A stretch of 64,000 bases of DNA, from assembly GCA_003221035.1 (NCBI GenBank), contig QHUB01000026.1, positions 56,810 to 120,809 on the forward strand. Reading direction: 5' to 3'. Shown one piece after another: positions 22,333-62,507 of this stretch. Positions within the stretch are counted from its first letter, which is position 1; each line of letters begins with the position of its first letter. This DNA is from Gemmatimonadota bacterium (GTDB lineage Bacteria; Gemmatimonadota; Gemmatimonadetes; Gemmatimonadales; GWC2-71-9). Below the pieces are notes generated by a model that was not told the DNA's origin, ran no database searches, and saw only the letters and a program-made list of their open reading frames with translations. A program made the position numbers and the translations under genes.

Positions 22333-23201
22333 AACTCCAGCTGCTTCAGATAGTTGTAGCTCACCGCCACGTCCTGGAATCCCTGCGGCGGGTTGTCGTG
22401 CTCGACAAAGAAGTGCTTGATGCCGGCTTGATCACGCTTCGCGAAGATGCGCTTCCAATCGATCTTCCCCTGACCCACGTCGGCCATCTTGTACTCGGGC
22501 GCCGGGCCCCCGTCCTTCACATGGACCAGCGGCACGCGGCCCGGCCAGCGCGCGAAATAGGTGAGCGGGTCCTGGCCGGCCTTCGTGATCCAGTAGAGAT
22601 CGATCTCGAGCTGCACGAGTTTTGGATCCGTGCTCTGCAACAGGACGTCGTAGGGGATCTGCCCGTCCATCTTGGGGAATTCGAAATCGTGGTTGTGATA
22701 GGCGAACTGGATCCCGGCGTCGCGCGCCATCTGGCCGGCGTGGTTGAAGACTTGCGCGAAGTTCTTCCAATCGTCGAGCGTCTTACGCCGCTCCTCGGGA
22801 ATCCACGGCATCACGATGTACTCGTGCCCGATCGTCTTGGCCGTGTCGAGGGCGGTCTTCCACTGGTCGTCATTCGTGAACGGGACGTGCGTGGACGGGG
22901 CCGTGAGTCCGTGTCGATCGAGCATGGCCTTGATCTCGGCCGGGGAATGGTCGAAGTACCCCGCGAACTCGACCTCTTTGTAGCCGATCTCCGCGATGCG
23001 CGCGAGCGTGGTCTCCACGTCTTCTTTCATCTTGTCGCGCACGGTGTAGAGCTGAATGCCGACCTTATCTATACGGGAGCGGGCGGCCGGAAGCCGGGAA
23101 CCGGAACACGCGACGGCGACACCCACTCCGGCCATCAGCTCAATGAACTCTCGCCGAGTTGTCCGACTCCCGGCTCCCTGCTCCCCGCTCCGGCTTTTCA
23201 T
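22329..23201 (-). CDS. Tat-exported sugar phosphate isomerase/epimerase-like TIM barrel
   Basis: A 290-residue protein from ATG 23201, preceded by AGGAGAG. Before the twin-arginine TTRREFIELMAGVGVAVACS it carries a 28-bp heptamer repeat translated as SRSGEQGAGSR. The barrel shows VGIQLYTVRDKMKEDVETTL, YKEVEFAGYFDHSPAEIKAM, FAYHNHDFEFPKMDG, QLEIDLYWITKAGQDP and LVHVKDGG, typical of the AP_endonuc_2 family. Members are linked to 3-keto-sugar isomerisation or cleavage. It overlaps the GMC oxidoreductase by 4 bases (ATGA), consistent with handling that enzyme's product. Confidence 0.88.
   Translation of the reverse strand: MKSRSGEQGAGSRTTRREFIELMAGVGVAVACSGSRLPAARSRIDKVGIQLYTVRDKMKEDVETTLARIAEIGYKEVEFAGYFDHSPAEIKAMLDRHGLTAPSTHVPFTNDDQWKTALDTAKTIGHEYIVMPWIPEERRKTLDDWKNFAQVFNHAGQMARDAGIQFAYHNHDFEFPKMDGQIPYDVLLQSTDPKLVQLEIDLYWITKAGQDPLTYFARWPGRVPLVHVKDGGPAPEYKMADVGQGKIDWKRIFAKRDQAGIKHFFVEHDNPPQGFQDVAVSYNYLKQLEF
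23164..23191. repeat. Four-unit heptamer array (GGAGCNG on minus)
   Basis: On the plus strand the array reads CGACTCC, CGGCTCC, CTGCTCC, CCGCTCC: four consecutive 7-bp units, 28 bp. It is translated in the N-terminal tail of the TIM-barrel protein ahead of its Tat motif. Same family as 41177-41204, 52067-52094 and 58636-58669. Confidence 0.85.
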
Positions 23202-27999: not shown

Positions 28000-29502
28000 T
28001 CAGCGCGGATCGTACGCGCCCCAGGCGCCGCGGAGGACGTCACTGATTTCGCCCAGCGTCGCGCGCGCGCGAACCGCCTCGAGAATCGGCTCCATGAGCG
28101 GGGCCGCGGCATCGCGGGCTGCCGAGTCGAGCGTGGCGAGCCGCCGTTTCACGCTTCCCGCATCCCGTTTCCCACGCAGCTCCGCAAGACGCCGGCGTTG
28201 CTGATCCGCGAGCCGGGAGTAGTCGGGCGCAACGGTCGCCGGCGCCGCTTCGCCGGTCACGTACTCGTTGACGCCAACCACGACCCGTTTCCCCGTCTCA
28301 ATCGCGCGCTGCTGTTCGTACGCGCTGCGCGCGATCGCCTCCTGGAAGTAGCCACGCTCGATCGCTTTGACGGATCCTCCCCCAGCCTCGACCTCTTCGA
28401 CCAACTGCCGGGCAGCGCTCTCGAGCTTGTCGGTCAGGCCCTCCACGTACTCGCTGCCGCCGAGGGGATCGACCACGTCCGGCACGCCGGTCTCGTGCGC
28501 GAGCAGCTGCTGGGTGCGGAGTGCCAGCGTCGCGCTGCGTTCGGTGGGCAGCGCCAGCGCTTCATCATAGGAGTTGGTATGCAGCGACTGCGTGCCACCC
28601 AGGACCGCGGCCATCGCCTGAACGGCGACGCGAACGACGTTGTTGAGCGGCTGCTGCGCGGTCAGTGTGGCGCCGCCGGTCTGCGTGTGAAACCGCAGCC
28701 GTGCGGCGGCATCGCTGGCATTGAACTTCTCCTTCATGAGACGCGCCCACAGCCGCCGTGCCGCGCGAAACTTGGCGATTTCTTCGAACAGATTGCTGTA
28801 CGCGGCGAAGAAGAAGGACAGCCTGGGGCCCAGCTCGTCCACCGAGACTCCGACGGACGACGCACGACGCACGTATTCAAGGCCGTTCGTGAAGGTGAAG
28901 GCCAGCTCCTGGACCGCCGTAGCGCCCGCCTCGCGCATGTGATAGCCCGAGATCGAAATCGGGTTGAAGCTCATGCTGTTGCGCGACGTGAACCGGAGAA
29001 TGTCGGCGATGAGCCGGAGCGAGGGCTCGGGAGGATAGATGTACGTGCCGCGGGCGATGTACTCCTTGAGAATGTCGTTCTGCAGCGTGCCCTGAAGCTT
29101 GGTGAGGGCGACTCCCTGCTCCTCTCCCACCACGACATACATCGCGAGCAGGATCGCGGCGGTCGCGTTGATCGTCATCGACGTGGACACGCGATCGAGC
29201 GGAATGGCGTCGAATAGCCGCGCCATGTCGTCCACGCTGTCGATCGCCACACCGGCCCGGCCGACTTCGCCCTCCGCCATCGGATGATCCGAGTCGTATC
29301 CCATCTGGGTGGGCAAGTCGAACGCGACCGAGAGGCCCGTCTGCCCGGCCTCGAGGAGGTGCTGAAACCGGTCGTTCGTTTCCTCCGCCGTTCCAAAACC
29401 CGCGTATTGGCGCATCGTCCACAGCTTGCCGCGGTACATCGTGGGATAGATACCGCGGGTGAACGGCCATTCGCCCGGAAGCGGAGTGCTGGTCTCCGTC
29501 AT
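28000..29502 (-). CDS. Methylmalonyl-CoA mutase, large (catalytic) subunit
   Basis: A 500-residue catalytic subunit. Motifs are [100 protein letters not shown] and [18 protein letters not shown]. The B12-binding domain is absent, so a separate small subunit must be encoded elsewhere; this two-gene arrangement is common. It interconverts methylmalonyl-CoA and succinyl-CoA in propionate or branched-chain metabolism; isobutyryl-CoA mutase is an alternative. It overlaps fbp by 4 bases (ATGA). Confidence 0.93.
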
Positions 29503-60079: not shown

Positions 60080-61165
60080 CTACGCAACTTGCGAAAGCTC
60101 TAAAACCTTGGCGACGATGGTTCGGGCGGCATTCGGGTGGCCTCGGCCGCGGGCACTCCGGGCCAGGGCAGCCAGTCGCTGGTCGTCATGGGCCAGCCCG
60201 ACGACGGTGGTCGCGAAGGTCTGGGGCGTAAATTCCCGCTCGAGCAGCAGGACGCTGGCACCCGCGTTTGCGAGCGCGCGCGCGTTGAACGTCTGATGGT
60301 CGGCGGCCGCCGTCGGCAACGGCACCAGCACACTCGGCTTCGCCCAGGCGCACAGCTCGGAGACGGTCATCGCACCCGCGCGCGCGACCACCAGATCCGC
60401 GGCGGAGTACGCGGTGCCGATGGGATCGAAGAAGCCGCGCACCGCGACGCGGCCGGGAATCGCGAGTGACGCGTAGCGCTCGAGATGCATGGTGCCCGTG
60501 CCCCACAACAGATTCACGTCGCCGAGCATTTGGCGCTGGATGGTACGCGCAATGGTGTCGTTGATCGCGCGCGCGCCCTGACTGCCGCCGAAGACGAGCA
60601 CCGTGCGTCGCTCGGGACTCAGTCCAAACTCCGCGCGCGCGGCGCCGGGGTCGATCGGTCCTGGTGGCATGATCGGATTTCCAAAGACAAAAACGTGCGT
60701 GCGCTTTCCGGGTGAGAGGAGCAGACGCGCTTCCGGAAATCCAAGGTGGACCTGATCGGCGCGGCGCGCGAGCCAACGCTGCGTCAGTCCCGGAAATGCG
60801 TTTTGCTCCTGCAGTGCGGTCGGGATCCGGGCGTTCTGCGCGCGCCAGACGACCGGCCCCGCCGCGTACCCGCCCGTGCCGATCACGATCGCGGGATGCT
60901 CCTCGCGCAACACGCTGCCCGCGGCACGCCACGCGCGGACGGCGATCGCCGGCCAGCGCATGTTGCGCCACCACGCGCGGCGATAGATCGGCTCCATGGG
61001 CAACAGATGAAATCGGAACGGATGCTGCGGAAGGATCTGCGCCTCGAGGCCGCGTGCCGCGCCGACGAGCGTGACCTCATGCCCGGCGTCGGCCGCGACT
61101 CGCGCCAGTGCCAGGGCGGGCATCAGGTGCCCTCCAGTACCTCCGCCCGCAATCAGGATCTTCAC
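60080..61165 (-). CDS. murG: UDP-GlcNAc:undecaprenyl-PP-MurNAc-pentapeptide transferase MurG
   Basis: A 361-residue lipid II-forming GT-B enzyme. GTG 61165 starts MKILIAGGGTGGHLMPALAL with the GGGTGGH motif; IPTALQEQNAFPGLTQRWLA, VLVFGGSQGARAINDTIART, LVVARAGAMTVSELCAWAKP and SVLVPLPTAAADHQTFNARA follow. No clear ribosome binding site precedes GTG 61165; just upstream lies a large repeat structure. The in-frame ATG at 61207 falls inside the repeats and is unlikely. Confidence 0.97.
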   Translation of the reverse strand: MKILIAGGGTGGHLMPALALARVAADAGHEVTLVGAARGLEAQILPQHPFRFHLLPMEPIYRRAWWRNMRWPAIAVRAWRAAGSVLREEHPAIVIGTGGYAAGPVVWRAQNARIPTALQEQNAFPGLTQRWLARRADQVHLGFPEARLLLSPGKRTHVFVFGNPIMPPGPIDPGAARAEFGLSPERRTVLVFGGSQGARAINDTIARTIQRQMLGDVNLLWGTGTMHLERYASLAIPGRVAVRGFFDPIGTAYSAADLVVARAGAMTVSELCAWAKPSVLVPLPTAAADHQTFNARALANAGASVLLLEREFTPQTFATTVVGLAHDDQRLAALARSARGRGHPNAARTIVAKVLELSQVA

Positions 61166-61173
61166 GACAAAGA

Positions 61174-61234
61174 ATTGCGGATTGCGGAATGCGGAATGGT
61201 GAACCAAATGCGAAATGCGAAATGCGGAATGCGG
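61174..61234. repeat. AATGCGG heptamer array, left arm between murG and ftsW
   Basis: Eight units on plus: ATTGCGG, ATTGCGG, AATGCGG, AATGGTG, a 5-bp slip, then AATGCGA, AATGCGA, AATGCGG, AATGCGG. It ends 9 bp from the murG start codon. Confidence 0.93.
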
Positions 61235-61283
61235 AATATCCGGGCCCGGGTCGAAGCCATTCTACCTGATTCGAACCCCGCCT

Positions 61284-61339
61284 CTACATTCCGCATTCCA
61301 CATTCCGCAGTCCGCATTGGGCTTTTCGCATTCCGCATT
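61284..61339. repeat. AATGCGG heptamer array, right inverted arm
   Basis: Eight uninterrupted 7-bp units on plus: CTACATT, CCGCATT, CCACATT, CCGCAGT, CCGCATT, GGGCTTT, TCGCATT, CCGCATT. The last unit overlaps the ftsW stop codon. It faces the left array across a 49-bp core with the palindrome CCGGGCCCGG. Confidence 0.93.
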
Positions 61340-62507
61340 ATGCCTTCCGCGCTCGCCCAACACTCGCCAGCACACCAGTGGCAGCTAGCGCGACGATCAA
61401 GGACGAGCGCCCATACGACATAAACGGCAGCGTAACTCCGGTAGCGGGGATGACAGCGAGGCTCACGCCGATGTGCAGCACGACACTCAGGCCCACCATG
61501 ACGGTGATCCCGGCCGCGAGGAGCTGCCCGAACGGATCCTGAGCATTCCGCGCGATGCGAAACCCGAGCCAGACGAACGTGCCGAACAGGAGCATGATGA
61601 CCAGCACGCCCAGGAATCCCCATTCCTCGCCGATCGTGGAGAAAATGAAATCGGAGTACGCGTACGGCAGGTAGCCGAGCTTCTGCTGCCCTTGCCCGAA
61701 TCCGGCCCCGAGCAGCTCGCCCGCGCCGATGCCGGTCACCGACTGCTGCACTTGCCACGTTGCCTCTGCCGGCACGGCGCCGGGATTCAAGAAGGTGAGG
61801 ACGCGGGCGAGGCGATACTGCGCCGTGGCGATGGCGCCGAACAGCAGCGGACCGGCGGCCACGCCGAGCGCGAGGAAGTGGCCGATGCGCGCGCCCGCCG
61901 TGAACAGTACCGTGCCCGCGAGGACCGCGACGAGCAGCGCCATGGAGAGGTGCGGTTCGAGGAAGATCAAGCCGATGAGCGGCACGAGGATGACGAGAAA
62001 CGGCAGGACGCCCCGCTTGAACTCTCTGAGCTGCACGCCCTTCTTCGCGGCGAGCATGGCGCACCACACCACGACGGCGAATTTGGCCAGCTCCGACGGC
62101 TGCAGTGTGAGAATGCCGAGATTGACCCAGCGCCGCGCGCCGTTGATGGTCGGAGTGATCGCGTGCGTGAACGGCAGCAGCGGGATCAGCAGCAGGAACA
62201 GCGTGAGGCCGAGCAATGGCCAGGCCCACTCGCGCCACCGGTGGTAATCGATGCGCGCAAAAATGACGGCGAGCAATCCACCCACCACCGCACCGACGGC
62301 CTGCCGCAGAGCAAAGCTCGCGCCCACCTGTCCGCCGGTCGTGGTGACGAGACTCGATGCGCCGTACACTGCGGCGAGTCCGAACACGACCAGGACTGCG
62401 GTCACGACAAAGAGCAGGCGCCCTTCCCAGGTTACCGCGCTTCGACTATGCGCCGGAATGTGGCCCCCCGCTCTTCGTAGTTCTTGAACATATCGTAGCT
62501 CGAGCAC
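61338..62507 (-). CDS. ftsW: Lipid II polymerase/flippase FtsW (SEDS family)
   Basis: Up to 389 residues with about ten membrane helices. Features: FALRQAVGAVVGGLLAVIFA, NGARRWVNLGILTLQPSELA (SEDS signature with the conserved PSE), LEPHLSMALLVAVLAGTVLF, SDFIFSTIGEEWGFLGVLVI, and ATGVTLPFMSYGRSSLIVAL. It is the septal glycan polymerase partner of FtsI. The start is unclear: GTG 62507 overlaps murD by 76 bases, and no ATG or GTG occurs near the usual N-terminus until a GTG inside the first helix. Confidence 0.94.
   Translation of the reverse strand: MLELRYVQELRRAGGHIPAHSRSAVTWEGRLLFVVTAVLVVFGLAAVYGASSLVTTTGGQVGASFALRQAVGAVVGGLLAVIFARIDYHRWREWAWPLLGLTLFLLLIPLLPFTHAITPTINGARRWVNLGILTLQPSELAKFAVVVWCAMLAAKKGVQLREFKRGVLPFLVILVPLIGLIFLEPHLSMALLVAVLAGTVLFTAGARIGHFLALGVAAGPLLFGAIATAQYRLARVLTFLNPGAVPAEATWQVQQSVTGIGAGELLGAGFGQGQQKLGYLPYAYSDFIFSTIGEEWGFLGVLVIMLLFGTFVWLGFRIARNAQDPFGQLLAAGITVMVGLSVVLHIGVSLAVIPATGVTLPFMSYGRSSLIVALAATGVLASVGRARKA

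Follow-up and report, generated by a model that had tools for sequence, protein, structure and literature searches.

Heptamer repeats and hairpin-forming insertions are known from several bacterial groups. Here we compare with them an element that occupies the gap between ftsW and murG in a 64,000-nucleotide stretch of a Gemmatimonadota genome (assembly GCA_003221035.1, contig QHUB01000026.1, positions 56,810 to 120,809, forward strand; hereafter the window, whose own numbering is used), and whose arms match those of an S23 gene-bearing element in the same genome. Cyanobacterial STRR heptamers are said to have been described by Mazel in 1990, and Elhai reportedly described, in 2008, small hairpin-forming dispersed repeats of Nostoc that lie within tandem heptamer arrays and were thought to be mobile.

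The 23S rRNA intervening sequence (IVS) of Coxiella burnetii has an S23p open reading frame (ORF) in its loop and tandem GACAGAT heptamers upstream of this ORF. It has been called selfish, has a 28-bp stem and is excised by RNase III in vitro, and one strain has a large ORF deletion (PMC4990558). The structure of S23p from X. campestris is known, a homopentamer of four-helix bundles (PMC4990558). The PF05635 family is said to resemble Avd of diversity-generating retroelements, with 2GSC compared to 4DWL (PMC10053308). Xanthomonas genomes contain facing GGGAATC heptamers with a preference for four units (70 convergent pairs in Xcc and 75 in Xac), which are mostly intergenic, lie near stop codons and are few between divergent genes; they are interpreted there in terms of G-quadruplexes and are "generally" not found with mobile elements, and slippage is considered as a source of heptamers (PMC4692102). 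In Beggiatoaceae, TAACTGA heptamers are abundant and intergenic, and are given as direct repeats and one indirect repeat (PMC4679880).

S23 genes between facing heptamer arms

The ftsW-murG gap of the window is filled by facing arrays of AATGCGG-type units, a claim of the initial annotation that was borne out when the sequence was re-read. The canonical part of the element, composed of an arm, a core and a facing arm, spans 61207-61318. This copy has no S23 ORF, and its insertion site is a protein-gene junction, not a 23S rRNA gene. At another locus of the host genome (3.36 Mb, 113 contigs), designated L015, two facing AATGCGR arrays are located approximately 365 bp apart and an ORF lies between them (S23 copy L265). 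Based on profile and structure matches (PF05635, 53.2 bits; TIGR02436, "four helix bundle protein", 79.9 bits; PDB 2rld, 1e-15), this ORF belongs to the protein family of 23S rRNA intervening sequences. The window element and the L015 S23 element have arms of matching unit in the same genome.

Facing arms were found around most S23 genes. The locus set (n = 70) consisted of the best 30 loci of a phylum search, 10 more of the host genome and 30 loci of other phyla, drawn from 27 genomes. Each gene was placed by a hidden Markov model, and a locus passed the arm test if the inverted-repeat score between its 300-bp flanks exceeded 17; L242 was dropped for its 13-bp flank. Fifty-nine of 69 loci passed (33/39 in Gemmatimonadota and 26/30 elsewhere), compared with 4 of 1000 control positions in those loci, and the best lag of the paired arms was 7 in 49 and 8 in six of the passing loci. 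Ten of the 11 S23 genes in the host genome passed, the remaining one (L263) scoring 16.0. Their arm heptamers are GTCTGGT, GGGGCCT, CGTCGTG, GATGTGG and AATGCGR, and octamers, such as CCGCTGAG and GACGCCCA, and a decamer (GACGGTAAGG, at L259) also serve as arm units. S23 matches were present in 25 plasmid records, 12 of which were fetched (named strains of cyanobacteria, Chloroflexota, Bernardetia and Treponema); 10 of these genes scored above 17, the best lag was 7 in 11, and S23 genes with facing heptamer arms occur on Nostoc plasmids. In Microbulbifer donghaiensis and M. taiwanensis, the sole S23 gene found in each has AATGCGG arms.

S23 genes and arrays also occurred together at the genome level. 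Within the phylum, AATGCGGAATGCGGAAT was present in 22 of 298 genomes, 21 of them in one family, and the reversed control gave 0 in every row. PF05635 was detected in all 22 AATGCGG-positive genomes and in 137 of 276 negative ones (P = 5e-7); within the family the corresponding numbers were 21/21 and 33/44 (P = 0.012), and the median S23 copy number was 7 in positives vs 2 in negatives (P = 1e-6). These comparisons control for relatedness only in part. PF05635 was present in 27 of 28 array-bearing genomes of other phyla and in none of 14 control genomes. We also inspected 464 kb of the host genome, which comprised the window and 400 kb taken irrespective of arrays. All three facing heptamer sites in this sample use the unit of an S23 copy in the same genome, 20 of 35 period-7 arrays match the unit of a host S23 copy, and periods 5 and 6 gave two and one facing rows, respectively, with poorly matching units. 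The fetched loci contained 315 period-7 arrays vs 25, 12 and 4 for periods 6, 8 and 9, an excess that is biased because most loci were picked for AATGCGG. With single-base shuffles as a reference, cores resembled the 5' end of the S23 element both in the host genome (mean score 8.9 vs 7.5 shuffled, 13 cores) and in other Gemmatimonadota (9.3 vs 7.1, 26 cores).

Two further observations concern the surroundings of S23 genes and of facing pairs. As annotated, several plasmid S23 genes lie in or beside defence-like operons (L316, L317, L318, L319 and L325), with the orders helicase - S23 - N-6 DNA methylase, DrmD - S23 - MmeI and DUF1156 - S23 - Swt1 HEPN (twice), and one gene beside cas1. Five loci (L067, L100, L106, L121 and L136) have facing heptamer pairs 290-751 bp apart with no S23 gene found between them, and may represent other cargo or two separate copies.

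Arm changes at orthologous junctions

The strongest evidence that pairing of the arms matters, as DNA or as RNA, is whole-arm covariation at orthologous sites. At the L015 site, the S23 gene is present in eight genomes of the genus, and its arms consist of AATGCGA, ATTGCGG, GTGTGGC or GGAACGC units, both sides alike. At site A, G000, G001, G005 and G006 have alignable cores (0/200 shuffles equal for every one of the six pairs) but three units among their arms; the core of G007 is unrelated. Since orthologous copies differ in unit in both arms alike, we infer that both arms were rewritten together. Arm matching within genomes was tested with 20 hand-picked entries from four sites, and 0 of 20,000 permutations were as good as the observed matching. 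Fifteen of the 20 entries were best in both row and column, and the other five lost to a relative bearing the same unit. The entries exclude G002 and G004 at site A, G003 at the S23 site, G003, G007 and the empty G004 and G006 at the L020 junction, and G002, G007, G019 and the empty gaps at ftsW-murG.

Relatives gave a divided answer to the initial annotation's view of the ftsW-murG gap as a heptamer hairpin: two of the six gaps readable in the genus (G006 and G008) are free of heptamers, and other gaps have facing arrays. The G006 junction reads stop-TAAT-TCTATCTC-GTG, and the G008 gap is compact. G000, G002 and G007 have an element in common, with similar cores, and G005 has facing GGAACGC/GGAAGTC arrays. 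Facing GGTGAAC arrays occupy this gap in G018, a member of another genus, and G019 has AATGCGG arms around a different core. The two heptamer-free gaps fit insertion as well as loss. In a tree of FtsW and MurG, G006 branched at the base of the genus, with support of only 0.49, and G008 was sister to G005 (0.96), and these positions make gain together with loss or replacement likely. The L020 junction, readable in nine of 10 genus genomes, has AATGCGG arms in two, GGATTGC arms in two, facing octamers in two, a perfect palindrome in one and nothing in two (G004 and G006). The palindrome (L182, in G001) is 26 bp long, TAGGGGCGCAGCATGCTGCGCCCCTA, and is located where relatives have facing arrays.

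A dispersed family and its placement

The whole host genome contained 79 + 79 matches to AATGCGRAATGCGRAAT with up to two mismatches, compared with 1 + 0 for the reversed control pattern, and 28 exact matches to ATTCCGCATTCCGC (0 for its reverse). In 13 of 15 other loci around exact matches, the arrays formed a facing pair in which the AATGCGG side came first, the exceptions being L021, a one-sided array, and L022, which had no cluster in the scan. When one element was used as a BLAST query, other copies in the host genome and the genus aligned over most of their length, including the core, with ~69-79% identity. The facing pattern was found in at least 120 stretches of species genomes from about a dozen phyla; record titles among the matches listed include Gemmatimonadetes, Bacteroidia, Acidobacteria, Planctomycetes, Nitrospirae, Verrucomicrobia, Sulfuricella, Microbulbifer, Deltaproteobacteria, Omnitrophica, Sumerlaeota, Calditrichia, Anaerolineae and others. 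Arms of the 120 copies listed, all from other genomes, had a mode of four units (83 left arms, 69 right arms, and both in 52), and their cores had a median length of 22 bp and appear to be lineage-specific. The AATGCGG unit lacks a GGG tract, and many of the units have GA as their last two bases. Carriage by viruses was considered and rejected: the whole viral collection yielded a single facing AATGCGG pair, on viral contig L328.

Copies avoided the gaps between divergent genes. Gene calls for this analysis came from a codon model without curated annotation. Among the 120 copies listed, 51 were between co-directional genes, 23 between convergent and three between divergent genes, 28 were inside a predicted gene and 15 at an edge; a stricter rule for "inside" gave 58, 23, 3, 20 and 16, respectively. 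Background gaps of 30-500 bp were co-directional in 259, convergent in 40 and divergent in 83 cases, and hence divergent gaps made up 3 of 77 among the copies vs 83 of 382 in the background. With the host-genome copies included, 88 of 105 adjoining gene 3' ends and 40 of 67 5' ends were within 20 bp of a copy. The 14 copies of the host genome comprised eight co-directional, four inside, one divergent and one edge case.

Several other arrays were observed. Three are apparently within ORFs and in frame (L015:4831-4854, in a hemW-like ORF; L011:1272-1518; L023:5067-5147). A three-unit ACGACGC array at 28851-28873 of the window has a unit in common with the arms of S23 copy L262 and with about a dozen other stretches of the genome. 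One-sided three-unit arrays of the GGGAGCC/GGGAGTC type are located at 23163 and 41181 of the window, and their unit was unmatched to the S23 arm units listed for the genome; further one-sided arrays of this type occur at L298:13691, L304:13449, L308:13421, L309:14031, L309:17315, L310:13183 and L315:2957.

Layout and folding of the ftsW-murG element

Both flanking genes are encoded on the minus strand. The upstream gene, ftsW (PF01098), occupies 61338-62507, and its TAA stop (61338-61340) overlaps the element edge; murG (PF03033 and PF04101) follows at 60080-61165 with a GTG start at 61163-61165. The left side of the element, on the plus strand, begins with the outer units ATTGCGG, ATTGCGG and AATGCGG followed by AAT (61174-61197), is interrupted for 9 bp (61198-61206) and continues with the inner arm of four AATGCGR heptamers and AAT (61207-61237), a canonical four-unit arm. 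The 50-bp core (61238-61287) is predicted to form an inner hairpin, and visual comparison aligns it with the cores found at this gap in G002 and G007. On the right side, in minus orientation, four reverse-complement units and ATT form the inner arm (61288-61318), which is followed by an 11-bp degenerate stretch (61319-61329) and by one outer unit and ATT overlapping the ftsW stop (61330-61339). The outer units of both sides are absent from the G002 and G007 copies. The clear units therefore number seven and five, fewer than the eight and eight counted in the initial annotation. The 7-bp phase noted there holds for the right array, which stays in phase into the ftsW stop, but not for the left one, which is broken by the interruption. 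A TTG start for murG at 61207 in the ORF list falls within the heptamer array and is probably spurious; arrays are open in all frames and can give gene callers false N-terminal extensions, as in this case. A search of 60900-61600 against Rfam gave no match up to E = 1.

When 61150-61350 was folded as minus-strand RNA, the predicted energy was -104.6 kcal/mol, compared with a shuffle mean of -65.0 (sd 4.5; z -8.7; 0/200 shuffles equal). The predicted stem-loop (61177-61350, minus strand) has 55 outer pairs, in agreement with the initially proposed stem of about 55 bp, and complementary ends like those of the long stem of an IVS are present. Four family copies folded as RNA gave z values of -4.4 to -9.2. 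Specific control of murG, also suggested at first on account of its lack of a clear ribosome-binding site, was unsupported: some relatives have no element, and the empty G006 junction also shows no clear ribosome-binding site by eye, so the lack of this site in the window need not stem from the element. A role as terminator or murG regulator was likewise unsupported, given the empty gaps of relatives and the negative wobble test described below. It is plausible that the element splits the ftsW-murG mRNA, by analogy with RNase III cutting of 23S rRNA intervening sequences.

Discussion

We suggest, with a probability of about 0.6, that the ftsW-murG hairpin is a gene-less (non-autonomous) relative of S23-bearing elements with arms of the same unit. 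In this view it likely spread with S23 help, is tolerated at operon junctions and is a probable RNase III substrate; that the element moves, that S23 is active and that the RNA is cut are what we infer here. Of the three options first offered for the hairpin (reduced murG translation, a split mRNA or a tolerated mobile repeat), the last is best supported, by the dispersed family, the two empty gaps among six and arms that match an S23-gene element in the genome. The S23 element with its arms would be the parent of the gene-less copies. The S23 protein likely binds these arms and may act on them, and copies with a matching unit might spread by its help, as a transposon serves its miniature inverted-repeat transposable elements (MITEs). 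Tolerance of the hairpin in mRNA would explain why copies persist next to stop codons at operon junctions; RNase III would most likely open or remove it there, as it does 23S rRNA intervening sequences.

Several results weigh against this proposal. No movement of the element was observed and no moving enzyme was identified. A stratified test for target-site duplications, with 61 offsets tried, revealed a weak 2-bp edge match (14 vs 6.9 expected; 1/100 shuffles) and nothing at 3 bp or more. Under RNA-level selection, sense-strand C>T/A>G changes that keep the pairing should be in excess; they were not (40 vs 33, P = 0.48), and we rejected wobble asymmetry as proof of such selection. RNA of the whole S23 element (L015:2020-2480) had ordinary stability (z -1.4, 11/100 shuffles equal). 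Ten of 69 S23 loci failed the arm test. Among 156 loci, one of eight long facing pairs encloses an S23 gene, as counted with a strict array filter that missed the L015 pair, and two of the three S23 genes found in those loci passed the arm test. The 86 cores outside Gemmatimonadota barely resemble the S23 5' end used (6.8 vs 6.5 shuffled), and M. rhizosphaerae has short arrays and no S23 gene found in a PF05635 search.

Other explanations have to account for the S23 genes as well. Polymerase slippage may have expanded the heptamers and template switching on a hairpin may have produced the facing pair, with S23 genes merely occupying the same tolerant places. Variation in tandem unit number, the one-sided arrays at L021 and site C and the slippage origin discussed with the Xanthomonas repeats (PMC4692102) agree with this, but it is made unlikely by the sharp four-unit mode in both arms, the occurrence of one unit across about a dozen phyla, the rate of facing arms at S23 loci relative to controls and the full-length similarity of copies, cores included. 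The hairpin may instead be selected as RNA, as a 3'-end stabiliser, terminator or attenuator acquired repeatedly from any hairpin-forming sequence, with S23 incidental. The closeness of copies to gene 3' ends, the avoidance of divergent gaps, the L020 junction, where seven of nine genomes have different hairpins, and the continued matching of arms agree with such selection. However, the sense-strand wobble test was negative, two junctions are empty at each of two sites, a full terminator inside the ftsW-murG operon would be costly, and S23 genes between matching arms are left unexplained; we regard this origin as improbable.

Elements resembling repetitive extragenic palindromes (REP/REPIN) and moved by RAYT, a Y1 transposase, are likewise short, palindromic, intergenic and dispersed, and the genome has one Y1_Tnp match (L175; G000:C101:23346-23615). 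This match to PF01797 is partial and marginal (23.8 bits vs a cut-off of 23) and matching arms were found round S23 genes instead, which makes such an identity very unlikely. Hardly credible here are G-quadruplex repeats as proposed for Xanthomonas GGGAATC: the layout of facing heptamers, four units and adjacent stop codons is alike (PMC4692102), but GGG is missing from AATGCGG, a GA ending is common among its units, and several S23 arm units, e.g., TAATTCG and GATTTAC, have no G runs.

Beyond this locus, we tentatively propose, at somewhat less than even odds, that S23 genes mark out a family of mobile hairpin elements in bacteria. Both arms of such an element would be arrays of a short unit private to it (generally 7 bases, in some cases 8 or 10), would be rewritten together in place and would serve as its address; facing heptamers in many phyla, including those of Xanthomonas and of ftsW-murG, would then be gene-less footprints. 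The widespread S23/four-helix-bundle proteins, which are said to be Avd-like, lack a known function, and there is no agreement on where bacterial heptamer repeats come from. If the link is true, a single element family accounts for both, S23 gains a testable nucleic-acid partner in its own arms, and there is a natural system where the sequences of two separate DNA arms change jointly.

Comparison with known systems

The facing arms and the S23 link are not known from the dispersed repeats of Nostoc and the STRR heptamers, which reportedly share with the present family small hairpin-forming elements tied to heptamers. Like MITEs, the gene-less copies have terminal arms in common with a gene-bearing element of the same genome (L265/L015), and relatives have empty sites (G006 and G008 at ftsW-murG, G004 and G006 at L020). 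With 23S rRNA intervening sequences the family shares the long stem, seen in the window copy, and an S23p ORF in the loop of its long forms; however, intervening sequences are located in 23S rRNA genes and the present copies at protein-gene junctions. The window element would thus work like an IVS, yet it is not classed as one because it lies between ftsW and murG. Heptamers of the Coxiella IVS are reported only upstream of the ORF, and the accessible text describes no facing pair, private units or gene-less copies (PMC4990558). Facing 7-bp arrays, commonly of four units, by stop codons and with few in divergent gaps, are found here as in Xanthomonas; the unit is different, AATGCGR contains no GGG, and the link to S23 is not made in the available portions of that report (PMC4692102). 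The TAACTGA repeats of Beggiatoaceae have another unit and are given as direct repeats apart from one indirect repeat (PMC4679880). In the open-licence literature we found no paper that joins S23 genes to facing heptamers. Four-unit facing heptamers by stop codons, in Xanthomonas, and S23 ORFs in hairpin insertions of 23S rRNA are already known. New here is that, across many phyla, S23 genes located at protein-gene junctions have private facing arms, that gene-less copies carry the same arms, and that the two arms change as a pair at orthologous sites.
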